DNA of 64,000 nt, from positions 47,277,166 to 47,341,165 of the forward strand of contig NC_012873.2 in NCBI RefSeq assembly GCF_000003195.3, given 5' to 3'. Of this stretch, positions 48,338 to 62,015 are shown one piece after another. The DNA comes from Sorghum bicolor. Lineage: Eukaryota > Streptophyta > Magnoliopsida > Poales > Poaceae. The position numbers were made by a program, and so were the translations under genes. The notes below the pieces were generated by a model, which saw only the letters and a program-made list of their open reading frames with translations, did not search any database and was not told the origin of the DNA. How positions within the stretch are numbered: the first letter of the stretch is position 1; every line of letters begins with the position of its first letter.

Positions 48338-49137
48338 AGGCATGGAGGTTAAGAATAAACATTGAATATTTAAAGCATAACTTTGTAATTGTGATAATTG
48401 AGATACACTATTGATCTTTTACTCAAACAGCCTCACCCTATCATTTGTCTATGTGTTTATATTTTAATGCAGGGTAATGTTTGATTGGTTTTGATCATCT
48501 GACATACTACATTGAGGATCTTGAGACACTAATCAGAAAAGCTAAAGCAAAACTCAGGAAGAAGATCCCTCCCACTTTGTTAGAGGAAGACCAGCCAAGA
48601 AGAAGCTTAGCACCTAAGTTTGAAGCAATGACCAAGACTCTCCATTAATTCTCCGCTCCAACCACTACCAACATCAGGACTGGACCCACAGTCAATGTGG
48701 GAGATGAAGTATTCGAGCTCAAGCCAGATTTGATCAACATGGTGCAAGGAAATCAGTTCTATGGGAAAGCACATGAAGATGCGAGTGCTCACCTTCAACA
48801 CTCCCTGAAGATTTGCAACACTTTCACCCTCAAGGGAGTATCCAAAGATGCTATATTACTCCATTTATTCCCATTCTCACTCTTGGGAAGGGGAAAACAA
48901 TGATTCTATGCCAACAAGGATAAGAATACTACATGGGATATATGCTCCACTGCTTTCCTAGCCAAGTTCTTTCCCGTAGGCAAGACGAATGTCTTACATG
49001 CAAAGATCTCAACCTTTTAGCAACAATATAAATAATCTATCCCTAAGGCATGGGAACGCTTCAAAGATTACATATCAGAATGCCCTCATCATGGGATGGA
49101 AGATTAGCTACTTACGCAGCATTCTATCATGGGCTCA

Positions 49138-49383
49138 CTACAAGTGCCCGTGAGAACATGGATGTAGCTGCTGGAGGATCATTTTTATCACTAACTATTC
49201 TTCAAGCCACCGCTCTTGTTGAGAAGATAGCTTCTAACCAAGGATGGAACAAAGAACGCTCTACAAGTGCCCGTGAGAACATGGATGTAGCTATTGGAGG
49301 ATCATTTTTATCGCTCACTATTCTTCAAGCCACCACTCTTGTTGAGAAGATAGCTTCTAACCAAGGATGGAACAAAGAACGCT
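49138..49383 (+). repeat. 123-bp in-frame tandem duplication in TE7 gag
   Basis: There are two copies, 49138-49260 and 49261-49383, each 41 codons (from TSARENMDVA to QGWNKERS). They differ at only a few bases. The duplication keeps the frame. Confidence 0.9.
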
Positions 49384-49636: not shown

Positions 49637-49641
49637 GAATC
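49637..49641. repeat. TE8 target site duplication, left copy (GAATC)
   Basis: Five bases before the left LTR, repeated at 62011-62015. Confidence 0.92.
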
Positions 49642-50338
49642 TGTTGACACCGTTTTTGGGCACGTGTCTAGGATGGCAGGATAAGGTGGCAGTACGATGT
49701 TTACAAAGTGGGTTGCCGATGAGGATGGTTGCCGATGAGGGAGAAGTTGAACGTGACTAAGTCCACAGGCAGTAATATGGTGCCGATGGCTAGATAAGAA
49801 AGTCTGCCAATGACTATGGCAAAGGGTCTGCCGATGATGCAAAGAGGGAGTCCGGAAGCTGCCGGTCGTTATGTGGAGGAGTTTCGGTTTGTCACGAGGG
49901 ATAGTTTTGTTATTTCCTTAATTATTTGCATCGTTTTGTATACGGATTCCGTGTAATTTGGAATTCGAATTCTAATCGTTTCTGGTTGTAGCTCTTTGAG
50001 CAGGGTATAAATATAGACCCTAGGGCCTTGTAATAAAAGATCAATCAAATGAATCAAACACACGTTTTTACTCATATTCCAGCATTTACTTTTCGACGAC
50101 TTCGTCATACTTTTTCCTTTTGTTACGAGTTCTTAGGAATTCGTCGACTTAAGCTCGGCGTGTTCTCAAGTTCCGCGTGAGTACCTCTTAGCCATGACAT
50201 CCGGGCGCATCGCTGTTGTCAGGACTAAAGTATTCGAGTTATCACCTTTGCCGATAGCAAGATCAAATCGGCTGGCACGCCTTAACGTTTGAATCGGGTA
50301 TTAGCCCTTTGTGTTTGCAGATCAGTTTTGCATCAACA
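49642..50338 (+). repeat. TE8 5' LTR (697 bp)
   Basis: It runs from TGTTGACACC to TGCATCAACA. It includes GCCGAT copies near 49713-49836 and 50250, a TATA box (50006-50015) and AATAAA near 50031. It has 24 bases near 49805-49830 (GCCAATGACTATGGC..) that are missing in the 3' LTR. Confidence 0.93.
50006..50015 (+). promoter_or_regulatory. TE8 LTR TATA box
   Basis: TATAAATATA lies after CAGGG, about 25 bases before AATAAA. It is conserved in the 3' LTR at 61678-61687 and is probably the core promoter for genomic RNA. Confidence 0.7.
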
Positions 50339-50342
50339 CATC

Positions 50343-50362
50343 TTTTGGCACGCCCAGTGGGA
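50343..50362 (+). other. TE8 primer binding site
   Basis: TTTTGGCACGCCCAGTGGGA lies five bases after the 5' LTR. TTTGGC..GCCCAGTGGG-type sites are seen in Tat-lineage elements. I cannot name the tRNA with certainty. Confidence 0.6.
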
Positions 50363-50385
50363 CAGGATTCAAGATCAAGATCAAC

Positions 50386-53300
50386 ATGTCGATCTCTGAC
50401 CTCGATCAAGAGAACGTCATCCCCGTGACGGAGGCCAACCTCAAGGATGAGCAGAAGCAAGCTATTGCCCAAGCCATGGAAGAGTTCAAGCAGCAATGCC
50501 TGAGGTCTTTCAGCATAAACAGGAGCGGCGAAGTGGTCCAGAAAGATGCACTGCCGGCACCACGGTAGGTTACCTTTGACGCCAATCCTGGCAAGCTTCA
50601 AGATATGGTTGACAATGCCATCAATCGAGCGTTGATTAACCAAGCTGGTGTACTGTCTAATACGGTTTTCAATGCCGTGGCAAGAACTTTCAAGGAAGGA
50701 CAAATCCCACCAGATTATGTGGGCCCCTCCCATCATCAGCCAACGGCACCAGAGGTCACGGCTCCATCGGCTGCCTTGACGACTGCAAGTGCACAATCTG
50801 CCGTCCCTCCAAGTACATCGGGGACTACTGGTGCACTATCTATGCCGATGACAACCAACCCACAAATTTCAGTTGGGCAGCATAGACTGACAACAGATAT
50901 GTTGGCATCGGCAATGTCAGGGTTGACTCTTCCTCCCAACTGGTGGGGTTACGGTATGCCTCCAGAGTTGACACCGGGAACATCACAAATAACTGACATG
51001 AGGGGCAAAACTCCTATGACATCGGCACCTCCCAATGCGCCGGTGAACCAGAGTCCTCGGTATACCACAACTACTACTGCAAGGCCTCACACTGGAAATC
51101 CTCAAGATTCAATGTTCCAGATGCCCAACGCATCGGCAGAGTCAATGCTGATGCAACAGAGGTCTATGGCCCAGTCGGGGTATGTCAATTCAACGACGGT
51201 ACCCAATTACCAATCATCGGCAGCACCTATGCTGATGAATGCTAATAATGGATGGCTTGGACAGCAAGCCTTTCCACAATCGCCCCAGCAGAGTTACCAG
51301 ACTACAGGGTTCCAGCAAGGGCAGGTCTATCCCGGGTTCCAAGGTCAGGGGATTCCCAACCAGCCAATGAATTTTGGACAGCAACTCGGGGGACAGCCAA
51401 TCGGTGGACAACAGTTTGGTGGTCCGCAGATTGGAGGACAGGTGATCAATACAATGTTCCGTGCAGATCACGTCCCGAACAGAGACGTGGAGGTTCGCCA
51501 CCAAGTGCCAGATCCGCAGCCGCCTCATCGGCAAGATGCCGATGCATATTGGGCCGATAAGATTGCTGAAGTAATGAGGGAACAATTTGGGATAAAATCC
51601 AAAGTCAACACTTACTCTTATCGGACACCGTATCCTCCCGCGTATGATTTGATCCCACTTCCACATCGGTACAAGGTACCGGATTTTACAAAGTTTTCCG
51701 GGCAGGACGACACGTCAACCATGGAGCATGTCAACAGGTTCATCATTCAATGTGGAGAGGCTGGTAACAGGGACGAATTGAGGGTTCGTCTATTTTCATC
51801 ATCATTGTCTGGATCGGCCTTTACTTGGTTCATATCATTACCTCCCAACTCAGTAATTACTTGGGCCGATCTAGAGAAGCAATTCCACAAATACTTCTTC
51901 TCGGGGGTTCATGAGAAGAAGATCACCGACTTGGTCAAGTTGAGGCAACGTAATGATGAGTCGGTTGAGGGTTTTGTGCAGAGGATACGAGAGGTCAAGA
52001 ATAAATGCTATAGCTTGGTTCTGGATGATCGGCAGCTAGCCGATTTGGCTTTCCAGGGTTTGTTGCCACATATCAGGGATAAGTATGCCTCTCAGGAGTT
52101 CGAAAGTTTAAGTCATTTGGTGCAGAGGATTTCTGATCAAGACATCAAGCCTTTCGAGCCTAAAAGAGCATGGAATAGGAAAGTGTCATTTGTCGATGAA
52201 GCAACAAGCTCAGATTCTGATGAAGAACCAGTAATCGGCTTGGCAGAGTGGGTAAAAAACAAGAAGCCGATGTCTTGTCCTTTTGGGCAGAAGGAACCAG
52301 AGAAGTTTGCTTTTGACACCGCTAAGGCTGATAGGATATTTGACTTTCTACTTCAGGAAGGTCAGATCAAACTGTCACCTAACCATGTGATCCCATCGGC
52401 AGAAGAGTTGAAGAGGATGAGATATTGCAAGTGGCATAATGCAACTTCCCATGACACCAACGAGTGCAAAGTATTCAGACAGCAGCTACAATCGGCTATA
52501 GAGTCAGGGAGAATCAAGTTTGACAGTTCCAAAGCCCAGAAGCCGATGAAGATAGACCAACATCCTTTCCCGACAAACATGTTGGATGCTAAGGGGAAGG
52601 CTAAGGTCTTAACATCGGAGACAACTAAGAAGAGTGCATCGGTAGATCCTCAGCATCAAGTTACTACTGCCGATGCAAGAAGTAAGGGCTTGGTCCAGGA
52701 AGGAACTAGCTCAGGAAGGCCTCCTCGATCTGGTATCGTCATAACTCATAGAAGGCCTCGAGAAAATTGGCAACAACGGGAATATCGGTATCGGCGCCAG
52801 CAGGAAGATTATCGACGGGAAGAAGAAAGACGCCGACAGGAGTGGAATCGGCACAGGGATCATTGGAATTGTCCATTCTTCATCCATTGTTGGGAGGAAA
52901 ATATCAAGCTTCCTACTGTCAGAGACTGCCCTGAGTGCAACGGTTATGATCGGTACGATAGGATCGATCGGCATTATCATGATGGTGAACGGCGATTTAA
53001 TGGGCTGATCAGAGGAAGGGTGTCAGTTCATGACCGGCTGGGGGGCAGATTTAGTGGGCACGGCAGACTTAGTGACCGTGTCCAGTATTTTCCCAGGAAC
53101 CAAGAAGAGCTCGAGGAAATGGCTGATGCGCGGGTTCCCGATGAATTCATATTTTGCAGGGATGCTAACACGCATCGTATGGAGTCAAGGGAGAACCGAC
53201 GCCCGACGGCAAGGCAAAGGCCACTTCCTCCATGGTGCCCTGGAGGATTAACCAAGACACAGAAAAGGAGATTGCAACGTGAAAGGCAAGAAGAGCTAAA

Positions 53301-54033
53301 CAAGGGAGAGAACTCTGGAAGTCGGCAGCCGTCAGACACTAAGAGGGAAGGTCCATCGGCAGGCGTCAACATGGTCTTCATGTTGCCGATGGAGTTTCTT
53401 GCACCAGCCAGTGATGATGAGTTGGAATTTTCTGATCAGATAGCTCAGTTGGCTCTGGATCCGATGACGGCTATCTTTGAGAAACCTGCCGATGACGAGA
53501 GGCAGCATCTTAAAGCTCTGTTCCTCAAAGGAAGGGTTGATGGGCAGCCAATGACCAAGATCCTAGTTGATGGTGGAGCTGCTATTAATATTATGCCGTA
53601 TGCAGTATATCGGAAGCTTGGGAAAGGGGATCAAGATTTGACCAAGACCGATATGATGCTCAAAGACTTTGAAGGAAACGTGTCTCCAGTCAAGGGGGCG
53701 ATATGTGCAGAGTTGACCATCGGCAGCAAAACCTTGCCGACAACTTTTTTCGTGATCAGCGGAAAAGGTGCTTACAACTTATTATTGGGAAGAGATTGGA
53801 TTCATGCCAATTGTTGTATCCCATCTACAATGCATCAATGCTTGGTTCAGTGGGTAGGTGACAAGATTGAGATTGTCCCAGGAGATTCTTCTTATGTTAT
53901 CGCATCGGCAGAAGCGGATACTTACGAAAGGACCAGGTGCATTTCAGGAGAAGTTTGGGAGAAAGATTTTCTCAAAGTTGCCGATTATGAGATTCCACCG
54001 ATCCAAGCAGTCAGTTCTGACGACGGTTTTTAA
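50386..54033 (+). pseudogene. TE8 gag-protease
   Basis: The frame opens at ATG 50386 (MSISDLDQENVIPVTEANLK). It is broken by TAG at 50566-50568 (ancestral Gln likely) and then stays open to TAA 54031-54033. A long Pro/Gln/Gly-rich N-terminal region (about 50700-51450) is followed by the gag capsid-like domain (YKVPDFTKFSGQD to GLLPHIRDKYASQEF, about 51670-52110). A Cys/His cluster (CKWHNATSHDTNEC) and an Arg-rich segment come next. The retropepsin has ILVDGGAAINIMP near 53560-53600, the Asp-Gly-Gly form common in Tat elements, then NLLLGRDWIHAN. Its stop overlaps the start of the next frame (TAATG). Confidence 0.88.
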
Positions 54034-55571
54034 TGGATAGATTCGCCGATGATGGAAAATTAGGCCAGGGATTCACATCAGCCGATGATTTGGTAGAAGT
54101 AGATATAGGTAGTGGTGATAAGCCTAGGCCTACTTTTATTAGTGCTAAATTAGATCCTGAGAGTTTGTTAAAGGAATATAAAGATTGCTTTGCTTGGGAT
54201 TATACCGAGATGCCTGGTTTAGACCGATCAATTGTTGAACATCGGTAACCCATCAAGTCTGGATTTCGGCCACATCAGCAACCAGCCCGCCGATGTAATC
54301 CTAACATTCTACCTGATATTAAGGCCGAAATCACCAAACTTATTGAAGCTAAGTTTATTCGGCAGTGTCGGTATGCCGAGTGGATTTCCAATGTTGTTCC
54401 GGTTTACAAGAAGAACGGGAAGCTTCGGGTGTGCATTGATTTCAGGAATCTCAATAAAGCTACGCCGATGGATGGATACCCAATGCCTGTCGCCGATCTA
54501 CTGGTTGATGCTGCGGCTGGTCATCAGGTCATCAGCTTCATGGATGGTAATGCAGGTTACAATCAAATATTCATGGCGGAGGAGGATATTCCAAAAACCG
54601 CATTCAGGTGTCCTAGTCATGTTGGGCTATTTGAATGGATAGTCATGACTTTTGGGTTGAAGAATGCTGGTGCTACTTATCAAAGGGCTATGAATTTTAT
54701 ATTTCATGAGTTCATCGGCAAGCTCGTGGAGATTTATATTGATGATGTGGTGGTTAAGTCTGGAGATTTCTCAAAGCATCTTGCCGATTTACAAAAAGTG
54801 TTAGAGTGCACAAGGAAGCATGGATTGAAGATGAATCCCAACAAGTGTGCATTTGGTGTATCGGCAGGGCAGTTTCTTGGTTTCATGGTACATCAGAGGG
54901 GTATTGAAATTAGTCGAAGATCTATTGATGCCATCAATAAAATAGTGGCCCCTACCAACAAAACCGAGCTCCAATCCTTGATCGGCAAGGTAAATTTTAT
55001 CACGAGATTTATATCAAATTTGTCTGGTAGGATTCGTGCTTTCAGTCCTCTTCTTAAATTGAAAGCCGATCAAGAGTTTATTTGGGGAGAAGAACAGCAG
55101 TTGGCTCTGGATGAAATCAAGAAGTATCTAGTAAATCCTCCAGTTCTAGTTCCACCTCAACAAGGGAAGCCCTTCAGATTGTATTTATCTACCGATGGAT
55201 CGGTTATCGGTTCAGCTTTAGTTCAAGAATTTGAAGGGAAAGAAAGGGTAATTTATTATTTGAGTAGGAGGTTGATTGATGCTGAAACCAGGTATTCGGC
55301 CATTGAGAAACTATGCTTATGCTTATATTTTTCATGTATCAAGCTGAGACATTACCTGTTATCGGCCGAATGCACTGTTGTTTGCAAAGATGACGTGGTC
55401 CGATACATGCTATCTATGCCTATTATGAGTGGTAGGATCGGTAAATGGATTTTAGCGCTGTCGGAGTTCGATTTGCGTTACGAATCGGCTAAGGCAGTCA
55501 AAGGGCAGATTATGGCCGATTTTGTGACTCAGCATTGCGGTCTAGTGGAAACCTTGGAAATTGTAGCCTAG
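54033..55571 (+). pseudogene. TE8 reverse transcriptase and first RNase H
   Basis: The frame starts at an ATG overlapping the gag stop (TAATG at 54031-54035). It is broken by TAA 54246-54248 (Leu codon likely) in the pre-RT linker and then open to TAG 55569-55571. RT has RVCIDFRNLNKATP, SFMDGNAGYNQIFM, FGLKNAGATYQRAM and the catalytic YIDDVVVKSG near 54735-54764. The first RNase H is derived (LYLSTDGSVIGSALVQE, RLIDAETRYSAIEKLCL, VVCKDDVVRYML), consistent with a degenerate original RNase H in Tat elements. Confidence 0.88.
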
Positions 55572-56384
55572 ACGCTCTTCTTTGATGGATCTACCTGTGA
55601 CCGGGGGGCAGGAATCGGCATTGTATTAGTTTCCCCTAAGGGGAGGAAGTATGAGTTTTCCTTGCCGATTATTGCCACATCAACAAATAATCAGGCTGAG
55701 TATCAGGCTCTGATCAAGGGATTGGAGTTGTTAAGAGAAGTTCGTGCTGATGCTGTTGAAATATTTGGGGATTCTATGTTGGTTATAAATCAATTGGCCG
55801 GAAGCTATGAATGCCGAAGTGAAGTTCTCATAACTTATTTCGAGAGAAGTATGCAACTGTTAAAGGAATTCAAGGATTTCCGATTGGAGCATGTTCCCCG
55901 ACTGCATAATGAAGACGCTAATCGGTTAGCTCAGCATGCCTCGGGATATCAGCCAATGATTAATGCGACATCGGCAGTCGGTGCCGGTGATTGGAGGAAA
56001 GAAATTATTGATTATCTAAAAGATCCATCCAAAAAAGTTGAAAGACGGGTTCGATTTCAAGCAACCAAGTATGTGCTCCTTGAAAATGAATTGTATTATC
56101 GAACTATCGACGGAATTCTTCTCCGATGCTTGGGTGATGATGAAGCTAGAAGTTTGATGGGGGAAATCCATGAAGGAGTGTGTGGAGCGCATCAGTCAGC
56201 TTTTAAGATGAAGTGGATGATTCGAAGGAATGGATATTTTTGGCCAACCATACTTGAAGATTGTTTTAAATATTTCAAGGGATGTCAAGGTTGTCAAAAG
56301 TTTGGTAATATCCAGAGAGCACCCGCATCGGCTATGAATCCTATAATAAAGCCTTGGCCGTTCCGGGATGGGCCATCGATCTGA
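55572..56384 (+). pseudogene. TE8 second RNase H and integrase zinc domain
   Basis: This is the same frame as RT, after a TAG (Trp expected). The second, archaeal-type RNase H reads LFFDGSTCDRGAGIGIVL, TNNQAEYQALIKGLELL, IFGDSMLVINQL and EDANRLAQHAS, so the D-E-D-D residues are present. It is followed by the linker and integrase zinc domain (HEGVCGAHQSAFKMKW, CFKYFKGCQGCQKFG). A frameshift at about 56360-56380 leads to the integrase core in another frame. An extra RNase H of this kind is a known mark of the plant Tat lineage. Confidence 0.87.
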
Positions 56385-57247
56385 TCGGCCAGATTTATCC
56401 ACCATCTAGCAAAGGGCATAAGTTCATTCTAGTTGCCACTGACTATTTCACTAAGTGGGTTGAAGCTATTCCTTTGAAGAAAGTCACATCGGCCAATATG
56501 ATTGATTTTGTGAAGGAGCATATTATTTACCGATTTGGGATTCCCCAAACGATTACTACCGATCAGGGCACCATGTTCACATCGGGGGAGTTCGATGAAT
56601 TCGCAATCGGTATGGGAATTAAAGTGTTGAATTCTTCTCCTTATTATGCTCAAGCCAATGGGCAGGCCGAAGCGTCTAACAAAGGAATTATCAAGCTTAT
56701 TAAATGAAAGATTGAAGAAAATCCTAAGCGGTGGCATACATTATTAAATGAAGCATTGTGGTCTTATCGGATGGCTTGTCATGGATCGACCAAAGTATCA
56801 CCCTATCAATTGGTGTATGGACATGATGCAGTGTTGCCTTGGGAAATTAAGGCTGGATCTAGGCGATTATCTTTTCAAGATCAATTAACTTCCGATGGTT
56901 ATGCCACTTTGATGACCGATGAATTGGACGATCTAGCAGGGCATCGGTTAAAAGCTTTAATGAGTATAGAAGAAAATAAGAAGAGAGTTGCCAGATGGTA
57001 TGATAAGAAAGTGAAGGCTAAAGAGTTTGCCGATGGGGATTTGGTATGGAAATTAATTTTACCAATTGGGACCAAAAGTTCGAAGTTTGGAAAGTGGTCT
57101 CCTAATTGGGAGGGTCCTTATCGGATAAGTCAATCGGCTCCTGGTAATGCCTACATTCTAGAAACCTTCGAAGGAATTGAATTTCCCAGAGCATTAAACG
57201 GCAAATATTTAAAGAAGTACTACCCCAGTATATGGGTCGATGCATAG
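56354..57247 (+). pseudogene. TE8 integrase core and C-terminus
   Basis: After the frameshift the core reads GWAIDLIGQIYPPSSKGHKF with the DDE residues in VATDYFTKWVE, TTDQGTMFTS and GQAEASNKGI. TGA 56705-56707 interrupts it, and the frame then continues with [38 protein letters not shown] and SPNWEGPYRIS to the stop at 57245-57247. There is no chromodomain, as in other Tat elements. Confidence 0.87.
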
Positions 57248-57348
57248 AAGTTTAGGTGCCGATAACACTCCTATCGGCTGGATCCAAATGCTTAGGGACA
57301 AGACTTGGTGTTTCAAAAGTTTAGGTGCCGATAACAGTCCTATCGGCT
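57248..57348 (+). repeat. Two 32-bp direct repeats with inverted GCCGAT arms
   Basis: The copies are at 57248-57279 and 57317-57348 with one mismatch. Each contains GCCGATA, a 7-base spacer and TATCGGC, so each is also an inverted repeat. They lie in the gap between the integrase stop and the end of the antisense gene. Confidence 0.88.
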
Positions 57349-57400
57349 AGACTAAAAGCTGAGGAAGCAGGAAAGCGCAGATATAATGCCGATGGAAACT

Positions 57401-60400
57401 CTATGTGTTAAGCAGCGTCTGGATTGCCGATATAGCGCGTAGCCGAATTTGGTTGGCTGCTTCTATCTCCTTGATGTCATCATCGGCAGAACCTTCTATC
57501 GGCTTCAGCTTCTTCTTCAGTTGAAGTGCCTTGCGACCATGAGCATTTCGCTCGTGCTCAAGAAGCCTGATGGTCTCTGGCAATTGGCTCTCTTCCTGTT
57601 GGGCTTGGGACAGAGCGTTCTCTACTTCCTTGAGTTCCGCCAACAGGGATTCTTTTCTTGCCGATAGATCGGATATCTTCTGCTTCAGCGCGTCTCCAGA
57701 AGATCTCAGGATACCGATGTTCTTGTGCTTCTCATCGGTCAAAAGCTTCTCTTTCCTCATTTCATCGGAGAGTTGAGTCTGAGCGGCTCTATCGGCAAGA
57801 CGCCGAGAAGCTCTCTGGTACTGCAGCTGGCGACTCTCTAGATGAGCGGCTTGGAACAGGATTTCTTCAACATCGGCTGGGATTTGGCCTCTGAGAGTTC
57901 TGAACAGGGTCTTGGTAGGGTCGGAATCATCAACCAATTGCGCTGTGTCCTGGTGAAGGAGAGCTGACAATTCTTCCAGCCTGACCCTGATCTCTGCCGA
58001 TGTGATGCCGACCGTCTGAGAAGAGCTTGCTTCTTCACCTTCTTCTTCAGAGAGATCGATGGCGAAGGAGAACAGGCTATCGGGAGAATCTTGTTCCTGG
58101 GAGGGAAAGCAAAATTAGCTCATACTCAGAGAATCAGCAAATAGTGCTAACGGTAAACGGTGACTTACTTGCTTCAAGGCGATCTCTTGTCTTTGACTGA
58201 GAAGTGCTGACGGAGCTGCAGGCTGATCGGCCAAAGATGCCGATGGAGCTACAGGTTGATCGGCTAAGATTGCCGATGGAACGATATCAACTGAAAGAAG
58301 ACAAAAGGAGTTATGAGACTAAATAATAATAAGTTCATCGGTAGCGATATTGTTAAAGTATGTTACCTGGAGGAGGGACAACGGTTGTCTGAACCGGGAG
58401 AACTGCCGATGGTATAACTGGACCCACCGGGCCAGTTGTTTGTTCACCCATGTCAGCTCATGTATCTTCTGTTTGAGATCCTTCCTGTTGGGGTTCTTCT
58501 ATCTATGGTGCTTCCTGCATAGGTGGGGGAGATGGTGCTTGCTGTGGCTGGGCTTCTGGAGAAGAAGGAGAAGACTCCACCGGAATTGGAGATACCGGAG
58601 GAGGAGGGGGAGTTGCTACCTTCTGGCGCTTTGTTCCAGTCTTAGCACCCGTGGTGCCCTTTCTCTTGGGTTGGCTAGACTGGGGGGCATCGGTACTCTC
58701 ACGCCTGGCTTTCGCCGATGCGCCGGTTTGCTGCAATAATGAACAAGAGTTTATAAGCATAAATATGGCCGATATAAAGATAGTCAGCATAAAGGAAAAG
58801 ATTTGACAAATTGCCTTGAAAGCCCGCGCAAGAGTGGGAGCAGCTACCGTTGGTGATGTCTGGGTTCTTCTGGTGGTGACTTTCCTGAGGCGTACACCCC
58901 GATGCACGATGGAAGCTAGAGTGGGAGCATTGTGGCCGATTGAGGAAATCGGGCCTGATGGAAACAAGTCGATCGGCCTGCCACTCCTGCTAACCAATGG
59001 AGGAATATTGTCAACCTGCAAAAGGAATACAAGGGTAAGCTGCCGATGGAGGTAATATTGAGAAAATGAAACGTTGGTTTGAGTTACTTACAGTGTCATC
59101 GGGAACTTCGTATTCGGAGTCAATCATGCCGCGGTATGAAAGTGCCGATCTGCAGAATAGATGCTCTTTCCATTCTGCCCACCATAACTTGTATGCCTGA
59201 GTGATAAAAGCAGCCGGAACCCATTCTGACAGATCTACATCTATATCGGCGTTTGGTGGTAGTTGGGCTGCTCGAGTCCACTCAAGAAGGTTGTTGATAG
59301 TTTCTCTGGGTTTTATCACATCGGCATAAGGAAGTGCAATCGGCAACTGGCCGAAAGCTAACTGGCGAGCTAATGCCGATGGATTGTAAAATTCGTAAGT
59401 TTGAGGGGAGGTTTTTGTGCTACCAAAGAAATTCACTGGAATGATTCTGGGAGTCACAATTGCCATCATCGCCTCATTGTCCCTGTCGAGAGCTTCATCA
59501 AATGGATTGAAGGTTAGAGGGAGCATGCTATCTGGGTCATCATAAGCCAACCATGGTCGTTCGTCTCTGGTCAAACCCTCATACAGAATCTGGAAGAATC
59601 GGCCGATCTGATCTGGATTACCCCCTGAACCAGGCAGAACTATGACAGCTTCGCCAAAGTTCAAGGGGGCGCGTGTTGCCGATTCCTCTTCACCCAATAC
59701 ATGGTTTTCAGCTATATCTCTTGGGAAACGCTGTGTGAACAGGTTGAAGTTGAGACGCTTGTGCAGATGCAGATTGAGCCACATGTTGACAAACCACCAG
59801 GGGCCTCCCAAGTTGCCAGTGGATTGGCCGAGCAGAAGTTTCTGGGCTACTTGATGGAGAAGGTGGTAAGCAGCGCCAAGCAAGTATCGGCCGAGAGGGA
59901 ATCGGCCACTGTTAGCCAGTCTTTCTGCTGCCGATAGGTTGACAGAAGTCGGTCCTGCCGATCGACCACAGAATACAAACTTGTCTAGCCACATGTTCAG
60001 AAAGGTGGTTTGTTCCTTTATGGTGACAGATCCTTCCCCACGGTACTTCTGAATGTACCCCGACCAACCGCCGATAGCGCGAGTCTCCACTTTGGCACTA
60101 GGGGCAGTATCAAAAAAGTGGGTGCTATCGGCAGAAGATATATCTAGACCAGTAAGCATGGCTACATCGGCAAGAGTAGGAGAAGCAGGGCCGTGGCCAA
60201 AGGCAAAAGCATTGAGGGTGTCTGACCAAAAGTAGGATGCAGCTATCAGCAGTGACTCGTTCCTATGCATATCGGCAATGGACAATCTAATGCATTGGGC
60301 TAGATTCCTTTCACCCCACTGAACTTCATTAGAGTTGCTGACCCTCAAGAACCAGTCTTTCCACCCTACAGTTGGGCTGGGCCAAGAGCGGAAGGTGTCC

Positions 60401-60697
60401 TTCCACAGATCTAAGGAAAAATTTTCGGCTCTGAAGGGGATCCTGTTGGTTTCTGCGTTGATAAGGTCAGTTGGATCTAGGTCCCCTAGAGGGCCGAGGC
60501 ATTGAAGGTGTGGTTGATCGGTGGGGATGACAATTTTGTTGGACAATTCCTAGTGATTTTGGGCGTAAAAAGAAATACAAAGAGGAAAGAAAAGGAAGAT
60601 GTTCAGTAAAATGAATTGCGAGTGAACAGGGATATGAAGAAAAATACAGAAGACGGGGTGGAGATTTGACCTCAGGGACGACGAACCCGACGGCCAT
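57401..60697 (-). CDS. TE8 antisense six-exon plant mobile domain (PMD) gene, two in-frame stops
   Basis: The ATG at 60697 sits in a good context (AAGATGGCC). Exons, by my reading: 60697-60671, 60549-59092, 59015-58815, 58730-58367, 58290-58169 and 58096-57401, giving 955 codons with the frame kept at all five junctions. Introns start GTCAAA, GTAAGT, GCAATT, GTAACA and GTAAGT, and all end in AG. Exon 2 holds the plant mobile domain (FSLDLWKDTFRSW, LTGLDISSADS, GGPWWFVNMWLNLHL). Exons 3-4 are basic and proline-rich, and exon 6 is a coiled coil (about 57480-57850). Exon 4 has TAG at 58503-58505 and TGA at 58458-58460, so the copy may be dead. Related PMD proteins of Arabidopsis (MAIN, MAIL1) affect transposon silencing. 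The role here is unknown. Confidence 0.8.
58214..58279 (-). repeat. 33-bp tandem repeat in PMD exon 5
   Basis: Two 33-base units (58214-58246 and 58247-58279) each encode an 11-residue unit of the type LADQPxAPSA. Each unit contains both ATCGGC and GCCGAT. Only a few bases differ between the units. Confidence 0.85.
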
Positions 60698-60847
60698 CTT
60701 GCTGCGAAGGAAGCGTTTGAAGGCACCGGAGTTGGTGAAGAGGGGTACTTGTCGGAGACCTTGGGAGTTTTTGGTGGCGCCGCCGCTGGAAAAGTAAAGT
60801 TGGGTAGTAGAATGGTGTGATGGGGAAGGAGTACCCAAGAAGGAACT

Positions 60848-60855
60848 ATTTATAG
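60848..60855 (-). promoter_or_regulatory. TATA box of the antisense PMD gene
   Basis: TATAAATA on the minus strand lies 151 bases before the ATG. A transcription start about 30 bases downstream would give a leader of about 120 bases. No comparable box is nearer. Confidence 0.6.
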
Positions 60856-61323
60856 GACAGAATGGGCAAGGGCAAATCCGACTTATCTCTTTGCCGCATC
60901 CGAGAAATCCGAGGGCACTCAGGTGGATATGGTAACTGTTCGCACGGTAATCCAGGGATTGTGCAGGTGATTTGACGGGAAGCGGTCATTATCCGAAGAT
61001 ATTTTACTGTGCGAGATCTCCTGGTCGGTCCATCGGCAATATTCTATAACGGTCATATTGCCGATGGGCGGATAGAGGGGAAGTAACCGTTTGTGCGAAT
61101 ATCCTGGTCAGAACATCGGCAGGTCTTTGTAACGGTATTGTTGCCGATGTACGGCTGAGAAAAATGCCCGTTTAGGAAGTTGGGGATTTTGAGAAATCTG
61201 CGGAGGAATAGGATCAGAGTTGTTCAGATTGAGGTTGTCGGTTACCAGATTAGGAGCATTAATTGCGGGAAAAGGCATCATTACTGCAGAGAATTTCGGA
61301 GCATTAATAGTTTTATACTCCGA
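60856..61323 (-). promoter_or_regulatory. Upstream region of the antisense PMD gene
   Basis: This 470-base stretch between the TATA box and the polypurine tract has no supported ORF. It holds two similar modules with a period of 83 bases (starting TCCTGGTC at 61019 and 61102). Each contains an inverted GCCGAT pair around a TAACGGT core: arms 61030-61042/61055-61067 (13 bases, perfect) and 61113-61121/61142-61150 (9 bases, perfect). Confidence 0.65.
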
Positions 61324-61337
61324 AACTGGGGGGCATG
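61324..61337 (+). other. TE8 polypurine tract
   Basis: AACTGGGGGGCATG lies directly before the 3' LTR start TGTTGACACC. Confidence 0.8.
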
Positions 61338-62010
61338 TGTTGACACCGTTTTTGGGCACGTGTCTAGGATGGCAGGATAAGGTGGCAGTACGATGTTTAC
61401 AAAGTGGGTTGCCGATGAGGATGGTTGCCGATGAGGGAGAAGTTGAACGTGACTAAGTCCACAGGCAGTAATATGGTGCCGATGGCTAGATAAGAAAGTC
61501 TGCCGATGATGCAAAGAGGGAGTCCGGAAGCTGCCGGTCGTTATGTGGAGGAGTTTCGGTTTGTCACGAGGGATAGTTTTGTTATTTCCTTAATTATTTG
61601 CATCGTTTTGTATACGGATTCCGTGTAATTTGGAATTCGAATTCTAATCGTGTCTGGTTGTAGCTCTTTGAGCAGGGTATAAATATAGACCCTAGGGCCT
61701 TGTAATAAAAGATCAATCAAATGAATCAAACACACGTTTTTACTCATATTCCAGCATTTACTTTTCGGCGACTTCGTCATACTTTTTCCTTTTGTTACGA
61801 GTTCTTAGGAATTCGTCGACTTAAGCTCGGCGTGTTCTCAAGTTCCGCGTGAGTACCTCTTAGCCGTGACATCCGGGCGCATCGCTGTTGTCAGGACTAA
61901 AGTATTCGAGTTATCACCTTTGCCGATAGCAAGGTCAAATCGGCTGGCACGCCTTAACGTTTGAATCGGGTATTAGCCCTTTGTGTTTGCAGATCAGTTT
62001 TGCATCAACA
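61338..62010 (+). repeat. TE8 3' LTR (673 bp)
   Basis: This is the partner of 49642-50338, with the same ends, TATA box at 61678-61687 and AATAAA. By eye it differs by a handful of substitutions and one 24-base deletion. Confidence 0.93.
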
Positions 62011-62015
62011 GAATC
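62011..62015. repeat. TE8 target site duplication, right copy (GAATC)
   Basis: This matches 49637-49641. The TE7 gag continues to the right. Confidence 0.92.

Follow-up and report, generated by a model that had tools for sequence, protein, structure and literature searches.

A short DNA word maintained by selection throughout a sorghum Ty3/gypsy retrotransposon family that encodes a plant mobile domain protein

In the VANDAL DNA transposons of Arabidopsis, the transposon-encoded protein VANC recognises a short motif that is dense in its own family, and its binding leads to the loss of silent marks; the motif is YAGTATTAY for VANC21 and AGTTGTCC/AGTTGTAC for VANC6 (PMC5735166, PMC10398659). 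A possibly comparable arrangement is found in TE8, a long terminal repeat (LTR) retrotransposon of Sorghum bicolor lying in a 64,000-nucleotide stretch of contig NC_012873.2 (positions 47,277,166 to 47,341,165, referred to here as the window). The hexamer GCCGAT (ATCGGC on the opposite strand) is enriched throughout this element, conserved between its relatives, maintained by selection and specific to its family. As in VANC/VANDAL, the motif is short, dense within the family and rare elsewhere, variants of it occur among related families, and the transposon encodes an extra protein. However, VANDALs are DNA transposons, whereas TE8 has gag, reverse transcriptase, RNase H, integrase and LTRs, and its extra protein carries a plant mobile domain (PMD) rather than the VANC domains DUF1985 and DUF287; a Pfam scan of the three antisense frames found PMD and neither DUF1985 nor DUF287 up to E 1. 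Unlike those of VANDALs, the TE8 sites are also largely kept in place between sister elements at 70-85% identity.

PMD sequences are already known from retrotransposons. Ikeda et al. assigned the PMD-A clades to Gypsy elements (PMC5418596), and Ogre elements carry PMD extra open reading frames (PMC6317226). TE8 resembles both in being a Ty3/gypsy element with an extra PF10536 reading frame, but the accessible portions of the two papers describe those elements without a DNA motif or binding site, and among the open-licence papers listed in literature searches none was seen to describe a motif dispersed through a gypsy element with PMD. Anti-silencing by PMD captured in Mutator-like elements (MULEs) appears as speculation in PMC5418596. 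The PMD frame of TE8 lies between pol and the 3' LTR in antisense, as do the antisense frames of Retand elements, which encode TRP28 (Transposase_28), a proposed DNA binder, and are accompanied by tandem arrays (PMC11963269). The antisense domain of TE8 is however PMD and not TRP28, and GCCGAT is sparse in six TRP28 loci (0-7 in ~6.2 kb). Among host proteins, Nicolau et al. tied MAIN, MAIL1 and PP7L to the 'DOWN' promoter motif, with direct binding just one hypothesis there (PMC7156037). This likewise links PMD proteins to a short DNA motif, although these are host genes and the motif sits in promoters.

An earlier note on this DNA reported, from a hand count, about 100 copies of GCCGAT/ATCGGC on the two strands in 12.4 kb against about 6 expected, with only a handful in the flanking elements. 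Both observations hold. Positions 49642-62010 contain 103 sites (53 GCCGAT and 50 ATCGGC, or 8.33 per kb) and the remaining 51.6 kb of the window contain 11 (0.21 per kb), with both-strand expectations in TE8 of ~5 under a first-order Markov model and ~11 under a second-order one. A fourth-order model already predicts 45 of the 51.5 sites per strand, as it would with the 5-mers inside the motif enriched too. The whole window holds 114 sites, whereas no count above 27 arose in 100 dinucleotide shuffles of it. No other hexamer is equally enriched: GCCGAT ranks first in TE8, followed by its overlapping shifts CATCGG (70) and TCGGCA (68), the 101 other hexamers of the same composition (shifts included) average 4.8, and a scan of the window in 6-kb steps found no comparably enriched hexamer in any stretch outside TE8. 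Of the 103 sites, 39 have the longer form TGCCGATG. The motif is strand-neutral, gaps between sites are irregular, and no longer repeat or common flank surrounds the sites. The description of sites in LTRs, gag, pol, antisense frames and spacers is borne out by the counts in Table 1; that they occupy every reading frame is true across the whole element, but usage is uneven, with one of the six frames empty in gag-pro.

The same note took the motif to be confined to a single element, which does not hold. In the 709 Mb Sorghum bicolor genome, TGCCGATG occurs 64,990 + 64,604 times versus 4,400 + 4,334 for the reversed pattern (129,594 versus 8,734), and the dense pieces that were read are TE8 copies or sisters. 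On C1, the first 100 plus-strand occurrences (0.98 Mb) comprise six clusters, with 92 of them, and 8 isolated hits, a number near the background of ~6 expected from the genome-wide control. GCCGAT is the top hexamer in four pieces from three of the six clusters (L031-L034), all of which match TE8 with main alignments of 77-98%. One of them, L032, found by motif, also matches TE8 over most of the PMD exon, and a PMD match is listed at C1:593313, inside a third motif cluster. If the density of TE8 is typical, the surplus of TGCCGATG over the control would correspond to ~3,000 element equivalents, or close to 5% of the genome. Searching by protein, the PMD frame is found at 97-100% identity in 84 scored places of 5,695 candidates, 77 of the 84 without a stop in the match. 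Thirty close copies, which are the best protein matches and not a random sample, carry 38-43 sites in 4.5 kb, the exception being L022 with 20, which contains N. Six further loci reached with diverged grass PMD proteins (L035-L040; three places read from 56 and three from 84 listed for two queries) also have GCCGAT as top hexamer, with 25-40 sites in ~4.5 kb at 70-93% identity to TE8 in the aligned 3' piece. The enrichment is therefore present in the related copies that were read. Fourteen other loci (L041-L045 and L050-L058; PMD/MULE, TRP28 and other) have 0-7 GCCGAT in 4.5-6.3 kb, the highest being L055 with 7, 3 of them TGCCGATG. PMD relatives occur in grasses, Miscanthus and others; in one Miscanthus protein (P0006) PMD is combined with an integrase core and an SH3-like domain of retroviral type, which may be an artefact of annotation.

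Comparison across family members, which the earlier note had proposed as a way to tell gain from conservation, shows that sites are mostly conserved, with some turnover. Identity between TE8 and L038 is only 70% in the 3' piece, yet 19 sites are common to both (35 alignable in TE8, 23 in L038), against a background of 16% for all hexamers and 11-13% for CG-centred non-motif hexamers; with L035, 23 sites are shared (of 35 and 28; background 17-22%). In gag-pol, 44 sites are shared with L048 (of 57 and 55 alignable; CG-hexamer background 0.29) and 36 with L049 (of 55 and 50; 0.24), in an alignment that leaves out L047 (only 0.8 kb homologous) and L046 (broken by another insertion). A separate comparison with L033 gives 16 shared sites (of 30 and 26; background 0.20-0.26). 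Eight overlapping family pairs, each compared in both directions, give 484 aligned occurrences of GCCGAT, of which 328 are conserved. This places it at the head of 150 frequent hexamers, whose median is 0.26 and among which GAAGCA comes second (64/96). This excess is restricted to the 6 motif bases and, slightly, the next base, the seventh position being weak. When the 3' piece is divided by region and by sister, conservation of TE8 sites exceeds the local hexamer background in each of the 20 comparisons; counts are low except in the PMD exon. With its eight sequences sorted into four groups, 23 of the 59 alignment sites are represented in every group.

Codon usage or a conserved protein sequence could be proposed as the source of this conservation, with 49 of the 103 sites in gag-pol and 17 in the PMD frame, as a coding explanation would want. 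However, the sites lie on both strands, in several frames, and in LTRs and spacers as well, and their third codon positions are themselves unusually stable. For gag-pol (four frames), 87 of 91 third positions in TE8 motifs are conserved in L048 versus 1302 of 1923 outside (Fisher p 1.7e-10), and 81 of 91 versus 1227 of 1912 in L049 (Fisher p 2e-7). In the PMD exon the counts inside motifs are 30/33 (L035), 32/33 (L037), 25/33 (L038) and 29/33 (L039), versus fractions of 0.58, 0.61, 0.51 and 0.55 outside (Fisher p 0.0065 to 6e-6 across the four sisters). Better conservation of third positions inside motifs therefore argues for selection on the DNA and not on the protein. Contradicted by strands, frames, third positions and noncoding sites, a coding bias is hardly credible and is rejected, in agreement with the earlier note.

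Selection is also separated from mutation by the variation among 29 close copies (mean identity 0.98; L022 excluded as containing N), for which 4,253 of 4,466 alignment columns were kept and gap-rich ones excluded. The 238 motif columns carry 48 singleton variants and the 4,015 others 657, whereas variants shared by at least two copies number 1 in motif columns versus 190 elsewhere. The singleton-to-shared ratios of 48:1 and 657:190 give an odds ratio of 13.9 and p 1.2e-4, a value that is approximate since shared variants are counted per column and the copies are related. In CpG columns alone the ratios are 15:1 in motifs versus 81:36 in others (p 0.04). Shared variants were presumably inherited through transposition. 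Most simply, the motif decays at the usual rate in copies once inserted but is retained in the lineages that continue to transpose. A normal singleton rate together with the near-absence of shared variants thus indicates that selection, not mutation bias or coding, maintains the GCCGAT motif. Biased mutation, protection of the word from methylation, or its multiplication through tandem duplication or gene conversion might have been expected from the CpG within the motif, the motif pairs in a 33-bp array of TE8, and the 24-25 bp spacing of LTR sites in L031 and L034 (motif-dense pieces of other copies). However, motif columns acquire singletons much as other columns do, no homology extends past the motif, and Tandem Repeats Finder reports just three rows within TE8. 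These origins are contradicted by the comparison of singleton and shared variants and are rejected as very improbable.

The site is probably best written RCCGAT, with ACCGAT as a likely weaker form. This rests on the enrichment of ACCGAT (24 in TE8) and on its exchange mainly with GCCGAT (48/210). By itself ACCGAT is kept in 92 of 210 occurrences (0.44), which is equalled by GCCCAT (20/45) and is not exceptional. RCCGAT totals in the gag-pol piece are 78 in TE8, 78 in L048 and 77 in L049, though many GCCGAT positions differ, and densities in eight 3' pieces are 8.7-10.8 per kb. The sum is near-constant while positions and the balance of G and A drift, and overall density, rather than each individual position, seems to matter. 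New GCCGAT sites arose at 7 of 169 opportunities versus a rate of 0.0155 for other CpG hexamers (~2.7-fold, p 0.017), a modest excess that ranks 154 of 2,047 hexamers with overlapping triplets and is weak evidence. Parsimony gives 85 losses in 286 versus 0.467 for other CpG hexamers, a lower rate that leans in the same direction. The idea that the motif has spread within the element thus stands in part, as some sites are gained and lost, but most are old and kept and not newly spread in TE8.

Strand neutrality and a short footprint suggest a protein that reads double-stranded DNA. The proposal that the motif is a binding site or mark is supported by these two features (the footprint being 6 bp plus a weak seventh position), the silent-site conservation, the scarcity of shared variants and the steady density. 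A motif acting in RNA, through splicing, packaging or translation, would draw on most sites lying in presumably transcribed DNA. However, the split of 53 to 50 by strand, the sites in LTRs and antisense frames, and the conservation seen in every region of the 3' piece all disfavour it, and it is rejected as most implausible.

Among proteins, PMD is the best candidate, being the family's extra gene with its frame kept open. GCCGAT (often TGCCGATG) would then be a sequence-specific recognition site on double-stranded DNA, and selection holds it, as RCCGAT, at about 9-11 per kb throughout the element, even at silent codon positions. The PMD protein encoded in antisense by the element itself would bind this dispersed array and, by its presence along the element, mark it as 'self'. 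It may also make the chromatin there more open or less methylated and in this way oppose silencing by the host, much as VANC acts on VANDAL. Binding of the motif by the element's own PMD protein is moderately probable. That its effect is anti-silencing or activation may be proposed with slightly less than even confidence. The proposal as a whole, a self-recognition array read by the element's own PMD in VANC-like anti-silencing, is the best explanation, to which we give an even chance.

The sites may instead bind a host transcription or chromatin factor exploited by the element. A host reader has to be considered because motif and PMD are co-inherited in sister loci found through PMD, and selection on the motif is silent as to which protein reads it. 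The DREB/CBF site (DRE/CRT) has the core RCCGAC, from which RCCGAT differs by one base. However, GCCGAC is not enriched (4 in TE8) and is kept in only 4 of 31 occurrences, 10 of the 31 lying opposite GCCGAT, and a DREB-type host site is thus unsupported, ACCGAC being outside this count. About 100 sites spread across coding DNA would be unusual for promoter use, TGCCGATG is near background outside dense clusters, and a MULE with PMD carries a different word. A host factor is on this evidence rather unlikely. It is also conceivable that the sites serve another nuclear step, such as compaction, nuclear positioning or tethering of the integration complex, through PMD or a partner. Such a role is favoured by host PMD proteins, which take part in silencing and seem to help condense heterochromatin (PMC5418596). 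Silencing of itself would however not be obviously selectable in a transposon, and the 5-bp target duplication GAATC differs from the motif. We regard this alternative as quite unlikely.

Reading of the motif by PMD is supported by a MULE that carries PMD together with its own clustered word, ACCTCGGCGT. This element (L044; PF10551 E 1.9e-22, PF10536 E 7.6e-38) has ACCTCGGCGT sites in both orientations at L044:419-629, outside frames of at least 100 aa, and the word has 1,635 genome hits versus 672 for the control. Clusters of 14 and 12 sites surround two PMD hits (C1:5389614-5399268 and C1:17182145-17191794), and a third listed cluster, of 7 sites, has no PMD hit among the matches listed. Tentatively, and with doubts that slightly outweigh our confidence, PMD may be a sequence-specific DNA-binding module whose site gypsy elements wrote into their entire sequence, even at silent codon positions, as a self-recognition code that lets the antisense-encoded protein find and de-silence its own family only, with PMD transposons carrying different codes.

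Several observations weigh against binding and anti-silencing by PMD. No significant relative of PMD was found among solved structures, the two matches (E 0.13 and 0.28) being designed proteins. VANC sites form same-orientation noncoding arrays, often tandem repeats, whereas those of TE8 lie on both strands in coding DNA, LTRs and spacers. In inserted copies, motif CpGs mutate at 15/2401 versus 69/8016 for other CpGs (p 0.30); motif CpGs are not clearly slower-mutating, and there is therefore no trace of lasting hypomethylation or protection from methylation. The loss rate of GCCGAT is just the 38th lowest among 110 hexamers. As the sister loci were found via the PMD frame, the association of motif and PMD is partly by construction. 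For ACCTCGGCGT, sites were read at one locus and otherwise come from listed places; of two further loci of this MULE, L057 is without the motif-bearing stretch and the read of L056 ends before reaching it.

The features of TE8 are collected in Table 1. The element is flanked by the target duplication GAATC at 49637-49641 and 62011-62015. Its LTRs align over 703 columns with 24 gaps at 95.7% identity, and with ~6 substitutions between them this copy looks young. The PF10536 match lies in a 512-aa antisense frame (E 1.4e-14; 54.5 bits versus a Pfam cut-off of 34.9). Beside RT_RNaseH, a second RNase H domain (RVT_3, PF13456, E 9.4e-19) is present, which we take to be a mark of the Tat lineage. 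The 230-bp leader is the only region of TE8 without the motif, with ~2 sites expected at average density. Adjoining the element, 49105-49350 holds a 123-bp tandem duplication (84% identical) within a frame that has a zinc-knuckle-like stretch by eye.

Table 1. Features of TE8 and the number of GCCGAT/ATCGGC sites in each.
Feature	Position	Strand	Motif sites	Basis or remark
TE8, Ty3/gypsy LTR retrotransposon, 12,369 bp	49642..62010	+	103	TGTTG...CAACA ends, 5-bp duplication, LTR pair
5' LTR	49642..50338	+	6	
Leader after 5' LTR	50339..50568	+	0	
gag-protease frame	50569..54033	+	28	PF03732, PF13975
pol (reverse transcriptase, RNase H, RVT_3, integrase)	54034..57247	+	21	Pfam
Spacer between pol and antisense frames	57248..57400	.	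5	densest stretch, 32.7 per kb
Antisense frame, coiled-coil-like by eye	57401..58114	-	7	weak DUF1409 match, E 0.15, below cut-off
Middle stretch			9	
33-bp tandem repeat, 2.3 copies	58205..58280	.		motif pair in consensus unit
Antisense frame with Lys/Arg-rich stretch resembling a nuclear localisation signal	58503..59087	-		by eye
PMD frame	59011..60549	-	17	PF10536
Region upstream of antisense frame	60550..61337	.	4	
3' LTR	61338..62010	+	6	

Dense words were also seen in other transposons. TCGGC is present in both the GCCGAT and the ACCTCGGCGT word, perhaps by chance. A second PMD MULE family (L042 and L058, pieces 93% identical) has GTACTCC repeats in 8 and 5 copies, and TTTCAGCAA is a candidate word in L043, each being a lead only. 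Four of the six TRP28 loci (L050, L051, L052 and L055) contain 70-71-bp tandem arrays rich in AGTCCCCGAGC and CGACCAGTC; these too are leads only, and perhaps an array form of the same idea. Beside or within TE8-like copies (L032:2851-3200, L041 and L046) lies an element with dense CACCGGAC/GTCCGGTG in both orientations. A frame in L041 has zinc knuckles and a copia-type gag match of 26.8 bits against a cut-off of 27, and no PMD was found in the frames scanned.

The available literature assigns no function to the extra antisense genes that plant gypsy elements carry (PMC11963269), nor a settled one to PMD (PMC5418596). A motif under selection across a whole family provides a concrete candidate ligand for PMD. 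Across the whole element, selection for this DNA word overrides silent-site freedom, a finding relevant to the ways in which abundant families of retrotransposons may evade silencing. If the proposed reading by PMD is true, the TE8 family would represent a retrotransposon branch of sequence-specific anti-silencing, and the orphan PMD domain would gain a molecular function.

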